Origin: Spirosoma montaniterrae | Lineage (GTDB): Bacteria > Bacteroidota > Bacteroidia > Cytophagales > Spirosomataceae | NCBI RefSeq assembly: GCF_001988955.1 | Contig: NZ_CP014263.1 | Span: 930,001 to 994,000 of the forward strand | Length of the DNA: 64,000 nucleotides | Direction: 5' to 3' | Shown here: piece by piece, positions 29,426 to 58,866 of the stretch | Layout: each line of letters opens with the position of its first letter | Numbering within the stretch: the first letter of the stretch is position 1 | The notes under the pieces: model-generated | The model's database searches: none | Seen by the model: the letters and a program-made list of their open reading frames with translations, nothing else | What the model was told of the DNA's origin: nothing | Position numbers and translations under genes: made by a program

Positions 29426-29794
29426 GGGGACGACCGGAATTGACAGCTTGCTGAGGTCGCGTGTAAGCATGCCGGGAGTTGACGGTATTTCCTGCCCAAA
29501 CAAATCGTCGAAACAATAACTGGCGAATATAACTACGCCATGGCTGCCTAATTCGGAGAATTAAGCAATAGCCATCGTCTCCCCGACCTACGTACTGCTG
29601 GTTGGATCAGGGGGCGTCGACTCGCAGTGCTGGCCCGGCTAATGGTGTTAACACCGGGCGAGATCCAAGCACCTACGGCAATTGGTCGGTCTGATTCGAA
29701 CCAGCCCCTTGCCCGACAATCCAATCGAATCTAAGCATGTAGAAAGCGCGTTGGTTTCCTTGACTGGACGAGAGTTCGAATCTCTCCGTCTCCA
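29426..29794 (+). ncRNA. ssrA: tmRNA (ssrA)
   Basis: A one-piece transfer-messenger RNA of ~369 nt. The 5' end GGGGACGACCGGAATTGACAG and the 3' end with TTCGAATCTCTCCGTCTCC are diagnostic, and the 7-bp acceptor stem pairs (GGGGACG with CGTCTCC, one G-U). CCA is not encoded. The tag frame at 29522-29551 reads GEYNYAMAA followed by TAA, a Bacteroidota-type degradation tag. Downstream GC-rich segments fit the pseudoknots. It rescues stalled ribosomes together with SmpB. Confidence 0.96.
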
Positions 29795-29800
29795 CGTTCC

Positions 29801-40385: not shown

Positions 40386-40465
40386 GAGTGAAAGAGCGAA
40401 AAGGTGAAAGAGCGAAGAGCCGCACCACTTGCTTGCTCTTTCACTCATTCACTCTTTCGCTTTTT
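40386..40465. repeat. GAGTGAAAGAGCG palindrome in the fumC leader
   Basis: GAGTGAAAGAGCGAAAAGG with a second GTGAAAGAGCGAAGAG in the left arm (40386-40420) faces CTCTTTCACTCATTCACTC and TTTCGC in the right arm (about 40435-40465). It forms a long imperfect hairpin that ends directly before the fumC ATG. Both arms consist of internal repeats of a ~10-nt unit. Confidence 0.65.
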
Positions 40466-40469
40466 ATTC

Positions 40470-41876
40470 ATGGAATACCGCATCGAGAAAGACACGATGG
40501 GCCAGGTGCAGGTGCCGGCCAACGTTTATTGGGGCGCGCAGACGCAGCGTTCGATTGAAAACTTCCCCATTGCTCAGGACATCAACAAAATGCCCCGCGA
40601 GATTATCCGGGCGTTTGCGTACCTCAAGAAAGCAGCCGCCCTCACCAACCTCGACGCGGGCGTATTGCCACAAGATAAAGCCGACCTTATCGGGCAGGTG
40701 TGCGACGAAATTCTGGCCGGTAAGCTCGACGATCAGTTTCCGCTCGTGGTCTGGCAAACCGGCTCCGGTACGCAGAGCAACATGAACGTAAATGAGGTAG
40801 TAGCCTACCGCGCCCACGTCCTGAACGGCGGCCAACTCACCGACGAGAAAAAATACCTCAACCCCAACGATGATGTAAATAAGTCGCAGTCGAGCAACGA
40901 CACGTTCCCGACGGCCATGCACATCGCGGCCTACAAAATTCTGCTCGAAGTAACTATTCCGGGCATTACTAAATTACGTAACACGCTCGATGCCAAAGCG
41001 AAGGCGTTTATGCACGTCGTAAAAATTGGCCGGACGCACTTCATGGACGCTACCCCGCTGACGGTTGGGCAGGAGTTTTCGGGCTACGTCTCGCAACTCG
41101 ACCACGGGCTGCGGGCCATTAACAATTCGCTGGCGCACCTGAGCGAGCTTGCGCTGGGTGGCACCGCCGTTGGCACGGGCATTAACACACCCAAAGGCTA
41201 CTCGGAAAACGTGGCGAAACACATCGCCAACCTGACGGGCCTGCCGTTCGTGACTGCCGAGAATAAATTTGAAGCTCTGGCCGCCCATGATGCTATTGTT
41301 GAAGCGCACGGTGCGCTGAAAACCGTAGCAGCTTCGCTGATGAAAATTGGGAACGACATTCGGATGCTGTCGAGTGGCCCCCGCGCCGGTATTGGTGAGT
41401 TATATATTCCTGACAATGAGCCGGGTAGTAGCATTATGCCGGGTAAGGTGAACCCCACGCAGTGCGAAGCCATGACGATGGTGGCCGCGCAGGTGATGGG
41501 CAACGACGTAGCGATTAACATCGGCGGTATGAACGGCCATTTTGAACTGAACGTGTTCAAGCCGGTCATGATTTATAACTTCCTGCACTCGGCCCGGCTC
41601 ATCGGCGACGTGTGCGTATCGTTCAATGATAAATGCGCTGAAGGCATCCGGCCTATCGAAGCCAACATCGAAAAGCACGTACAAAACTCACTGATGCTGG
41701 TAACGGCCCTGAACACCAAAATCGGCTACTACAAAGCCGCCGAAATTGCCCAAACGGCGCACAAAAACGGCAGTACGCTGAAAGAAACCGCCGTTGCCCT
41801 CGGCTACCTCACCGCCGAAGAATTCGACCAGTGGGTTGTGCCGGGCGACATGGTGGGGGAGGTAACGGGTCAGTAA
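40470..41876 (+). CDS. fumC: Class II fumarate hydratase
   Basis: A 468-residue enzyme from the ATG at 40470 ([28 protein letters not shown]). It shows the fumarase/aspartase signatures [47 protein letters not shown], the active-site loop [20 protein letters not shown], and [17 protein letters not shown]. It interconverts fumarate and malate in the TCA cycle. A palindrome fills the gap just before the start. The 3' end is repeated in a damaged form at 42616-42673 beyond an inserted module, and the probable original terminator lies at 42735-42766. Confidence 0.95.
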
Positions 41877-41894: not shown

Positions 41895-42385
41895 ATGCAG
41901 TTTGACAATAAAGGGTTGTTAACTCCAGCGGAGATAGTTCTGTTGTCTCTTGCAGAGCTTAAGGAGGTATTTGTTAATTCTTTCCCTAATTCAGAGACTC
42001 AGCATACCATCTTTGCTTCTTATTGTCAGTTTGTAGAAGATTTTACCCGTGAAATTTGCCCTGTTTTCACGCATTGGATAGACGGTAGTTTCATCACAAA
42101 CAAGTTGAATCCTAACGATATGGATTTTGTTGTCCACGTTGAGGATTTAATGTTCGAGACTAACGTCGCTTGATTGACAGTAAATTTCGTCTCACTGGCG
42201 CGAAACGGTTCTACCCAAAACTGGACGTTTACACGGTTCGTTGTTATCGGCCAGAAGATTCGCGGTATTTCATTACAGAGCATGATTTAGCTTACTGGCA
42301 CGATTGGTTTACACACACACGCCCAAATCGATTTGGGAAGCGGAGCCGAAAGGGGTATATTGAGGTGAATTATAATCGCACTTAA
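41895..42385 (+). pseudogene. DUF6932-like nucleotidyltransferase-fold protein, frameshifted copy
   Basis: The gene is in two pieces, 41895-42173 and 42170-42385. Adding one T to the TT at 42170-42171 joins them (FETNVALIDSKFRL) into a ~163-residue protein colinear with the intact homologue at 58126-58599. Shared features are the IFxxY helix, THWIDGSFITNKLNPNDMDF (the GS...D-x-D nucleotidyltransferase motif) and a third acidic residue in PKLDVYTVR. The C-terminus ends with RKGYIEVNYNRT, as the homologue ends RNKGFLELIVC. The gene starts 18 bp after fumC and is followed 3 nt later by its small partner. It is either decayed or affected by a base-call error. Codon use is more AT-rich than its neighbours, suggesting transfer. 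Confidence 0.75.
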
Positions 42386-42388
42386 GCA

Positions 42389-42601
42389 ATGGAAACAGAA
42401 GAAGTTACTCTGGATATTCGGATGAATGACTTACTTCAGCAGGTTAGGCGGTTGGATGAAATGATCACGTTTCATCAGCAGCATTCCGGCGATGCAGCAA
42501 CGATACGTCAATACGAGTTTATGAAGGCTGATTTTATTGACAAAGCAAATCAGGCTCTTAAGGCGTATCATGTTCAATTAATAGCCACGCCAGTACACTA
42601 A
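42389..42601 (+). CDS. Small helical partner of the DUF6932-like protein (copy 1)
   Basis: A 70-residue, mostly helical protein (MNDLLQQVRRLDEMITFHQQ ... QYEFMKADFIDKANQALKAY). It sits 3 nt after the nucleotidyltransferase-like gene, exactly as its counterpart at 58603-58866 does. The two partners share a loose pattern: LLxxhxxhD, a polar gap, then an F/Y-x3-K/R-x5-A-x2-L-x4-Y helix. No catalytic motif is visible. It may be the antitoxin, or the toxin, of a two-component module; the sequence does not say which. No database name is known to me. Confidence 0.6.
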   Translation: METEEVTLDIRMNDLLQQVRRLDEMITFHQQHSGDAATIRQYEFMKADFIDKANQALKAYHVQLIATPVH

Positions 42602-42615
42602 TTCAAGTACCTAAT

Positions 42616-42673
42616 CCTCGGCTAACTCGACAATCGGGTTGTATCCGGCGATATGGTGGGGGAGGTACAGTAG
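42616..42673 (+). repeat. Degenerate duplicate of the fumC 3' end
   Basis: The stretch TCCTCGGCTA...CTCGAC...GGGTTGT...CCGGCGATATGGTGGGGGAGGTA...CAGTAG aligns with the last ~75 bp of fumC (41803-41876) with small deletions and substitutions. A 15-bp exact match spans 41850-41864 and 42653-42667. The DUF6932-like module therefore lies between two fumC ends, as after integration or allele exchange. Confidence 0.75.
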
Positions 42674-57627: not shown

Positions 57628-57689
57628 TAAACAGTCATCAGCCAACAGCGAACAGTGTACACTGATTACTGTTGGCTGATGACTGTTTA
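57628..57689. repeat. Intergenic palindrome, AGCCAACAG family (copy 2), between tRNAs
   Basis: A 21-bp perfect inverted repeat (57628-57648 with 57669-57689, including TCATCAGCCAACAG), with a 20-nt loop. It separates tRNA-Pro and tRNA-Arg and shares its core with the palindrome at 17427-17474. It could attenuate transcription or be a processing site. Confidence 0.75.
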
Positions 57690-57696
57690 GTGTATT

Positions 57697-57770
57697 GGTC
57701 CCGTAGCTCAGTTGGATAGAGCATCTGCCTTCTAAGCAGACGGTCTTTGGTTCGAATCCAAACGGGATCA
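57697..57770 (+). tRNA. tRNA-Arg (TCT)
   Basis: A 74-nt tRNA. The acceptor stem is GGTCCCG / CGGGATC with one G-T pair, the anticodon stem is TCTGC / GCAGA with loop CTTCTAA (anticodon TCT), and the T-loop is GGTTCGAATCC. Its 3' end faces an integrase remnant, so it is a likely attachment site for a former mobile element. Confidence 0.95.
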
Positions 57771-57780
57771 CTTTTTACGT

Positions 57781-57889: not shown

Positions 57890-58111
57890 CCCAATCAGGA
57901 GGTTGATACGATTCGTTTACGACCAACGCATTTTTGGCCTACCGTCTCGATTATGAAGATAACCGGCCACAAGTCTGAAGCGCAGTTTATGAAGTACATC
58001 AAAGTCACGGGCGAACAAAACGCCCGCTTATTACTCGACCATCCTCATGTCAACGGAACCGCAGCAAGGCGGAACACCAATGTAGTACGAACCATGCACA
58101 AGGCTGTGTAA
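57890..58111 (+). pseudogene. Tyrosine integrase C-terminal remnant
   Basis: A frame at 57953-58111 reads MKITGHKSEAQFMKYIKVTGEQ and continues to a TAA. This is the recognisable C-terminal end of Bacteroidota tyrosine recombinases, with the GHKS His and the catalytic Tyr in FMKYIK. Just upstream, in another frame, YDSFTTNAFLA resembles the preceding helix (normally SFTTNAFLAG). The sequence between is damaged by deletions, and the Arg-containing N-terminal part is missing. It therefore cannot be active. It marks an old integration event next to tRNA-Arg and precedes the module at 58126. Confidence 0.75.
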
Positions 58112-58125
58112 CACTGAGGAATCTA

Positions 58126-58599
58126 ATGCTAATCTTTGACGAATACGGATTTCTGAAACCCTATGAACCCATTAAAATTGACCTCGACATGCTGGAGCAT
58201 GTGTTTGTCAGGGAGTTTGCTAACTCGATTACGCGCCAAACCATATTTGAGCAATACCGGGCCTATACCGACCGATTACTGACGCTCTTACCGGGCGGGT
58301 TTACGCAGTGGATAGACGGTAGTTTCGTGAGCCGTAAACTTGATCCCAACGATATAGACGTTTTGACGTTTATCGACGCTGACCTGTACAGTCGGCACGA
58401 ACGGGCATTAAAAGAATTGAAAAATGAATTTGCACAGGGAGCCGGGCGGGTAGATGTTCATTTCATTCGGATATATGCCGAAGGCCACCGCTACCGACCT
58501 CATTTTGAATCTGACCGGGTGCAATGGCTATTTGACTGGAGCCGTACCAACACCCGCCCCCGCCGAAACAAAGGATTTCTTGAACTTATAGTCTGTTGA
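58126..58599 (+). CDS. DUF6932-like nucleotidyltransferase-fold protein (intact copy)
   Basis: A 157-residue protein. The central signature is QWIDGSFVSRKLDPNDIDVLTF: Gly65-Ser66, then Asp76-x-Asp78, with a third acidic residue Asp110 in GRVDVHFIRIY. This is the metal-binding arrangement of the DNA polymerase beta / minimal nucleotidyltransferase superfamily. N-terminal helices (LDMLEHVFVREFANSITRQTIFEQYRAYTDRL) precede it. It could AMPylate or nucleotidylate a protein or RNA. The small partner gene starts 3 nt after the stop. A frameshifted homologue with the same partner arrangement is at 41895-42601. Placed beside an integrase remnant and tRNA-Arg, it looks like cargo of a mobile element. 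Confidence 0.75.
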   Translation: MLIFDEYGFLKPYEPIKIDLDMLEHVFVREFANSITRQTIFEQYRAYTDRLLTLLPGGFTQWIDGSFVSRKLDPNDIDVLTFIDADLYSRHERALKELKNEFAQGAGRVDVHFIRIYAEGHRYRPHFESDRVQWLFDWSRTNTRPRRNKGFLELIVC

Positions 58600-58602
58600 G
58601 CC

Positions 58603-58866
58603 ATGCAAGTAGAGGACATTTTAGACGACCTGCCAACGACACCGCACGAACGGGCCGAACTCATTGAACAACTGTTGGAAATGATAGAACATTGGGACGC
58701 AGGAATCAAACGCCATGAATCTTACCCGGAACGGGACGAATTCACGATTGACCAGTTCACCGACCAACGAAACAAGTACATCGCGCAATTAGCCGTACTG
58801 CTGAATCAATACGGATTGATAGTTCAAATGCCTACTCAACCCACAACCGGGCGGTTAGCGGCCTGA
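58603..58866 (+). CDS. Small helical partner of the DUF6932-like protein (copy 2)
   Basis: An 87-residue acidic, helical protein: DILDDLPTTPHERAELIEQLLEMIEHWDAGIKRHE, a polar turn, then FTDQRNKYIAQLAVLLNQYGLIVQM. It occupies the same position as the 42389-42601 protein, with identical 3-nt spacing. The shared pattern is an LLxMhxxWD/hD helix and a C-terminal K/A-x3-L-x4-Y helix. No motif reveals a function. Tight coupling suggests that the two products interact, as in toxin-antitoxin pairs. Confidence 0.62.
   Translation: MQVEDILDDLPTTPHERAELIEQLLEMIEHWDAGIKRHESYPERDEFTIDQFTDQRNKYIAQLAVLLNQYGLIVQMPTQPTTGRLAA

Follow-up and report, generated by a model that had tools for sequence, protein, structure and literature searches.

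A DUF6932 gene and its small helical partner, a probable mobile toxin-antitoxin cassette of Bacteroidota

AbiE and MenT-type systems consist of a toxic nucleotidyltransferase with an antitoxin, and MNT-HEPN systems (HepT-MntA, HI0073/HI0074) combine a nucleotidyltransferase with a helical partner. The family DUF6932 (PF22014) is catalogued without a known function; in PADLOC it corresponds to PDC-M63A, which is paired with PDC-M63B as a candidate defence system, and it is not mentioned in the open PMC literature that we searched. Here, we analysed a window of 64,000 nucleotides from Spirosoma montaniterrae (NZ_CP014263.1, positions 930,001 to 994,000), which contains two copies of a DUF6932 gene (gene 1) followed after 3 nt by a gene for a small helical protein (gene 2, the partner). 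We consider it likely that this pair is a mobile toxin-antitoxin (TA) cassette with gene 1 as the toxin and gene 2 as a small helical antitoxin, and the cassette is widespread in Bacteroidota. Three lines of evidence suggest a TA pair of this polarity: the C-terminal tails of the partners, the broken and solitary genes, and the insertion of the cassette.

Both gene 1 copies belong to DUF6932 and match PDC-M63A. The copy 2 protein matches DUF6932 with an E value of 1.3e-27 (97.4 bits, above the curated cut-off of 27 bits) and PDC-M63A with 1e-16. For copy 1, the first-pass annotation had described a single protein of about 160 residues, but the frame is broken. Its N-terminal piece covers DUF6932 positions 1-78 (E = 4.2e-17, 63.3 bits) and matches PDC-M63A (1.8e-14), and its C-terminal piece covers DUF6932 positions 101-142 (E = 8.9e-5; 23.4 bits, below the cut-off). 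We read the break as decay, with a sequencing error as the alternative. Programmed frameshifting was rejected, because the broken relatives have their breaks at other places. In five of these (L026, L031, L131, L143, and L153) there is a stop at or beside a Q-W dipeptide ahead of the GS motif, and the Q-W codons are one transition away from a stop. The two pairs in the window do share one design, as had been noticed, and they are well diverged homologues, since the small partners are only 20% identical; the E values together with the family-wide pairing exclude a chance resemblance. The module occurs twice in the window, but the host genome (5.8 Mb, one contig) contains four DUF6932 genes.

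The predicted metal residues GS...D-x-D...D are present in gene 1. Among 48 aligned homologues, Gly-65, Ser-66, Asp-76, and Asp-78 (copy 2 numbering) are invariant, and the third acid, Asp-110, is conserved in at least 90%. Gene 1 is modelled with a polymerase-beta-type nucleotidyltransferase fold, and its hG[GS]...[DE]x[DE] motif and third acid on the matching fold place it in that class. The structures that the model matches include those of MNT proteins; a PDB sequence search gave no usable match. For the partner, the model shows a hairpin of two helices, and few positions are conserved. The partners of the window have no match above the cut-offs of Pfam or NCBIfam and none that is convincing in PADLOC or PHROGs; PF09720 (Unstab_antitox) weakly matches the copy 2 partner over 18 residues (E = 0.016; 15.7 bits, where the cut-off is 23.3), and this match was not used. 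A read-through model of gene 1 and partner is confident per residue, and its pTM of 0.68 is by our estimate about that of two independent domains, so that docking is not claimed.

PDC-M63AB resembles the pairs of the window in that gene 1 matches PDC-M63A and a second gene follows directly, and copy 3 of the host genome is a full M63A-M63B pair (M63B, 7e-174). However, the window partners are 70-87 residues long against ~305-330, neither matches the M63B component of PADLOC, and the large partners never end in Ala-Ala (-AA) (0/34). Homology of the small hairpin with large-partner N termini was rejected at hhalign probabilities of 4% (12 large partners) and 1.4% (the XRE-type partner of L005), and we claim only a common position and a predicted helical nature. 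The likeness to MNT-HEPN lies in the combination of nucleotidyltransferase and helical partner and in the MNT structures that match the gene 1 model. In contrast, the partner model has two long helices, and the pattern of gene loss indicates the reverse polarity. That the partner lacks a HEPN motif, as first stated, is borne out: R-x4-6-H is not conserved among 35 aligned partners, and the window partners have no HEPN Pfam match at E ≤ 1. AbiE and MenT-type systems may be analogous in their working mode, a nucleotidyltransferase toxin with an antitoxin. Unlike in AbiE (type IV TA), no AbiEii or AbiEi Pfam domain is matched at E ≤ 1, and the proposed antitoxin is a bare hairpin without a recognised DNA-binding domain. 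A likeness to PD-lambda-2 is limited to locus L061, the only one among nine large partners scanned, where DUF6932 precedes an XRE-peptidase gene near PD-lambda-2_B (1.5e-77). According to PMC9519451, a HigB-like gene occupies the position that DUF6932 has in L061, and the B component is toxic there; the window partners match neither XRE nor peptidase models. The suggestion of a new TA or defence type distinct from MNT-HEPN and AbiE thus holds in that the pair is unlike both and the partner is often tagged with a putative degron, but gene 1 is already catalogued and M63A-M63B pairing is already a PADLOC candidate. The small-partner version has no good match in the databases compared.

DUF6932 is present in 23 of 36 genomes of the genus, in 76 of 200 sampled across the family, and in 31 of 395 sampled across the phylum (24 above the cut-off). 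For the pairing count, matches from the genus and family samples were taken, and gene 1 was placed by its own profile in 130 loci; L156 and L158 gave no hit with that profile. A partner lies directly downstream in 128 of the 130, as expected for a TA system of two adjacent, near-obligatorily paired genes. It is small and helical in 117 loci (4 partial) and a larger gene in 11; L129 has an unscored 72-residue frame and L011 has nothing downstream. With pairing this near to universal, homologues found mostly without the partner, which the first-pass annotation had named as evidence to the contrary, are not what is seen. Among the large partners, those of L003 (the same locus as L160) and L139 match PDC-M63B, that of L005 is an XRE-type protein, and that of L135 is HsdR-like; seven further ones of 302-326 residues lay outside the PADLOC scan. 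The long partners of L062 and L075, from other families, do not match the M63B model. The gap between gene 1 and partner ranges from -23 to +18 nt (78 clean pairs, one from outside the family). In the best 80 of 150 named genome loci there are 73 with a small adjacent frame, 5 with a large one, 1 broken, and 1 at a contig end. On viral and prophage contigs the large partner prevails (29/32), with a 55-residue gene in two cases and a broken locus in one. Two distant matches came from the plasmid collection and two from the phage collection. In a Streptococcus phage, DUF6932 is followed by a 55-residue gene close to integrase and excisionase genes.

Of all the signals, that of the small partners' C termini is the strongest. 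Ala-Ala is the end of 99 of 164 partners, and Ala of 119, whereas among 326 open reading frames (ORFs) of at least 200 residues on the same contigs one ends in -AA and 16 in Ala. None of the 164 gene 1 proteins has an -AA end. After clustering of the partners at 60%, 55 of 100 clusters are mostly -AA. One of 165 partners was dropped from the count at a sequence end, and the 164 include L242, which is really a piece of gene 1 from the same locus as L154 that was mistaken for a partner. A DNA-level recombination motif was rejected as an explanation because the tails use each of the four Ala codons and every one of the 16 possible pairs. The copy 2 partner ends in GRLAA and that of copy 1 in ATPVH. 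The -AA end of the ssrA tag is a known ClpX signal, and -AA partners should therefore be labile. To judge from its sequence, the tail would be an encoded ClpXP-type degron, and the partner should be short-lived. Degradation of ParD is treated in PMC6191456.

Some tails go further and resemble the whole transfer-messenger RNA (tmRNA) tag. Five tails, chosen for their likeness, were set against the tags of their own hosts. That of L099 (GNTSYAMAA) is identical to the host tag in all nine positions, and L047 (GNTSHAMAA against GNTSYAMAA) and L113 (GEYSYAMAS against GEYSYAMAA) agree in eight; L132 has GEYYYPMSA against GEYSYAMAA and L150 has GEYHYAMAS against GNYSYAMAA. At the DNA level, the L099 tail has seven silent differences from the tmRNA, so the peptide has been conserved or has converged and is not a fresh DNA copy. 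In three genomes with the tag GEYNYAMAA (G000, G022, and G100) the partners share at most the -AA end with it. The open PMC literature that was searched showed no antitoxins whose tails reproduce the tmRNA tag of the host.

By a strict rule, gene 1 is broken and the partner intact at 23 loci, the reverse is seen at 2, both genes are broken at 3, and both are intact at 88; one locus at a contig edge (L145) was kept separate. The two reverse cases, L107 and L123, have partners of the longer type and are scored as partner lesions for that reason alone, and L002 was scored intact although its profile match begins at position 14. After correction for target length, this asymmetry of breaks reaches only p = 0.04 (0.06 for clusters). 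Solitary genes signal polarity more clearly. The 36 genus genomes contain 41 partner hits, and 8 have no DUF6932 nearby, one of them at a contig end. Of the other seven, three have intact frames (L360, L361, and L363), one has a stop close to the C terminus (L362), and three are broken (L364, L366, and L367). The broken partner L364 immediately follows a mutS end, at a place where relatives (L009, L016, L017, and L024) carry the cassette. Gene 1 without a partner was found once in 130 loci. Because intact partners stand alone and gene 1 almost never does, the partner seems harmless by itself, and gene 1 appears hardly ever to be retained without it. Two or more partners or partner pieces occur in tandem at eight loci. 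One result weighs against this polarity: partners beside a dead gene 1 end in -AA no less often than the rest (17 of 26 against 60 of 90).

Table 1. Positions in the 64,000-nt window of the two gene pairs and associated features
Feature	Position	Strand	Remarks
Copy 1 gene 1, N-terminal piece	41895..42173	+	92 codons, TGA end; DUF6932 with GS...D-x-D residues
Copy 1 gene 1, C-terminal piece	42170..42385	+	71 codons, different frame from N-terminal piece
Copy 1 small helical partner	42389..42601	+	70 residues, intact frame, no -AA end
Copy 2 gene 1, proposed toxin	58126..58599	+	157 residues, intact DUF6932 protein, nucleotidyltransferase fold
Copy 2 small partner, proposed labile antitoxin	58603..58866	+	87 residues, helical hairpin
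Copy 2 partner Leu-Ala-Ala codons, proposed ClpXP-type degron	58855..58863	+	C-terminal
Host tmRNA	29426..29795	+	tag GEYNYAMAA; some partners' tails resemble this kind of signal
fumC (class II fumarase), upstream of copy 1	40404..41876	+	TIGR00979, 759 bits
60-nt direct repeat, upstream copy	41805..41864	+	3' end of intact fumC
60-nt direct repeat, downstream copy	42608..42667	+	75% identical; fumC 3'-end remnant just past partner stop
Tyrosine recombinase C-terminal remnant	57953..58111	+	directly upstream of copy 2; by eye
tRNA-Arg (TCT), upstream of integrase remnant	57697..57771	+	

Copy 1 starts 18 nt behind fumC and lies between two copies of the fumC 3' end (Table 1); in the downstream copy a stop in the fumC frame was seen by eye. 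All 29 fumC loci examined in relatives lack the cassette. Copy 2 stands behind tRNA-Arg and an integrase remnant, and the two sites fit the proposal that the copies arrived separately. A tyrosine recombinase was found by motif search directly upstream of nine other cassettes (ten rows, L154 and L242 being one locus); the gene upstream of L037 looks recombinase-like without the motif. No convincing attachment repeats were found around the integrase-associated cassettes, and no convincing copy of the tRNA 3' end behind copy 2. Between tRNA-Pro and tRNA-Arg of the window there is a 31-nt inverted repeat (57628-57689, 90%) without a loop.

Across the loci, an ORF of at least 100 residues on the same strand overlaps gene 1 or ends within 50 nt of it in 71 of 159 cassettes (6 of 165 loci were dropped for poor flanks, and 8 of 165 in the repeat count). 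Flanking repeats scored above the 99.5% null score in 25 of 157 unique cassettes and above every null score in 18, compared with 7 and 3 of 332 control gene ends on the same contigs (Fisher, p = 4e-8 and 3e-7). Most of the 25 repeats are a duplicate of the 3' end of the gene ahead of the cassette. This control evolved from mismatched loci (37/255 against 1/507) through a score threshold from mismatched loci to real gene ends. In 14 of the 18 strongest cases, the repeat copy ahead of the cassette forms the 3' end of an ORF with 239 or more residues, and this ORF stops no more than 27 nt from gene 1. The genes are lepA, mutS, ettA, fabH, rpe, thrA-type, and fumC, together with RbsB-like and CysE-like genes that are below the NCBIfam cut-offs. 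An additional case beyond the 14 is aspS (L123), whose repeat was lost in the score-threshold count because the partner frame runs into it. At this locus (G040:C162) the partner enters the duplicated aspS 3' end and so ends with the AspRS C terminus, not with -AA. The downstream repeat copy begins just past the partner and at lepA runs into a terminator-like hairpin. The cassette is present in 5 of 30 lepA loci of the genus; in 14 of the 25 empty loci the stop codon was found by pattern and is followed by a hairpin, seen by eye. L109 and L126 have look-alike partners behind different genes (fabH and CysE-like). Longer direct repeats (62-196 nt) lie farther out at L071, L073, L074, L236, and L238, the first three of which have large partners. 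We favour recombinase-type integration that targets the 3' ends of genes, with an enzyme supplied in trans or lost since then; duplication during illegitimate recombination is an equally plausible route of insertion.

As a type II-like TA system, in which the toxin is a nucleotidyltransferase and the antitoxin is helical and labile, the pair would work as follows. Gene 1 would be a polymerase-beta-fold nucleotidyltransferase, probably toxic, that most likely adds a nucleotide to host RNA or protein. Gene 2, probably translated from the same mRNA, would encode the small helical antitoxin. An -Ala-Ala degron would mark the C terminus of most of these antitoxins, and in a few of them the tail equals the host tmRNA tag or comes close to it; rapid removal by ClpXP or a protease like it should follow. 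When synthesis stops, through gene loss, phage shut-off, or stress, the stable enzyme would be set free. The unit of ~0.75 kb often sits directly behind another gene; the best cases have it ahead of the terminator of that gene, between copies of the gene's 3' end. A more detailed version, which we put forward tentatively and with some doubt, is a minimal mobile addiction unit. Its antitoxins would carry an encoded host tmRNA tag adapted to the lineage (GNT... or GEY... by genus), tying toxin release to the ClpXP queue of stalled-ribosome products. The cassette, without a recombinase of its own, would insert behind the stops of housekeeping genes, duplicate 19-114 nt of the 3' end, and borrow promoter and terminator. 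With the TA reading, DUF6932/PDC-M63A would gain a likely function and a polarity, and the proposal can be tested directly. Antitoxins with tmRNA-tag tails would connect addiction with ribosome rescue and ClpXP. The insertion pattern, with a housekeeping gene ahead of the cassette and copies of its 3' end on both sides, hints at a way for such a small unit to be acquired without harm and expressed, and it raises the question of the mover.

The polarity could instead be that of MNT-HEPN, with the nucleotidyltransferase as an antitoxin that modifies or restrains a toxic small partner. We regard this as unlikely: partners persist intact both alone and beside a dead gene 1 (23 loci), as a toxin would not, they have no conserved R-x4-6-H, and it would be uncommon for the toxin, and not the antitoxin, to bear the degradation tag. 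The excess of -AA ends and the tmRNA-tag-like tails also speak against an ordinary accessory enzyme with a small subunit, in which decay and tails would have no TA meaning. Frequent decay and the patchy spread in the genus would suit any dispensable gene, but gene 1 is near-obligatorily paired while the partner survives alone, and we give this explanation very little credence.

An anti-phage system without classical addiction, in which the partner, in the role of M63B, would switch on the gene 1 effector or hold it until infection, would accord with the PADLOC listing of DUF6932 and M63B as a defence candidate, with the large-partner form that dominates viral and prophage contigs, and with the settings of copy 3 (behind N6-methylase and HsdS genes), of a plasmid copy (near a multiubiquitin/ThiF operon), and of L135 (HsdR-like partner). 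Other observations speak against it. The one test of PDC-M63AB that we found was made in NILS69, an E. coli strain. Deletion of the pair gave no defence phenotype there (PMC12409345). Many small-partner cassettes lie behind housekeeping genes, and the small partner has no detectable homology with M63B-type N termini. Overall, we think a purely anti-phage role improbable and prefer the mobile TA cassette.

Some DUF6932 loci have neighbours of interest. Copy 3 of the host genome (L160, G000:C1:5284000-5293000) has DUF6932 and a full PDC-M63B immediately behind N6-methylase and HsdS genes. The N6-methylase has a weak HsdR-type N terminus, and a formyltransferase (purU-like) gene follows the M63AB pair, which by its position may be part of a restriction locus. 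In L135 (G076:C15:14731-19159), the gene after DUF6932 encodes an HsdR-like type I restriction protein. Its first ~55 residues match the PDC-M63B N terminus (E = 5.5e-5), so that the N-terminal part of M63B is apparently joined to a defence effector here. Copy 4 of the host genome (L161, G000:C1:5666000-5680000) adjoins tRNA-Arg (CCT) and has two tandem partners, the second ending in PQPNV, with an IS605-type TnpB gene beyond the cassette. On plasmid NZ_CP147712.1 (L164), DUF6932 with a 313-residue partner is found beside a multiubiquitin/ThiF/DUF6527 operon.
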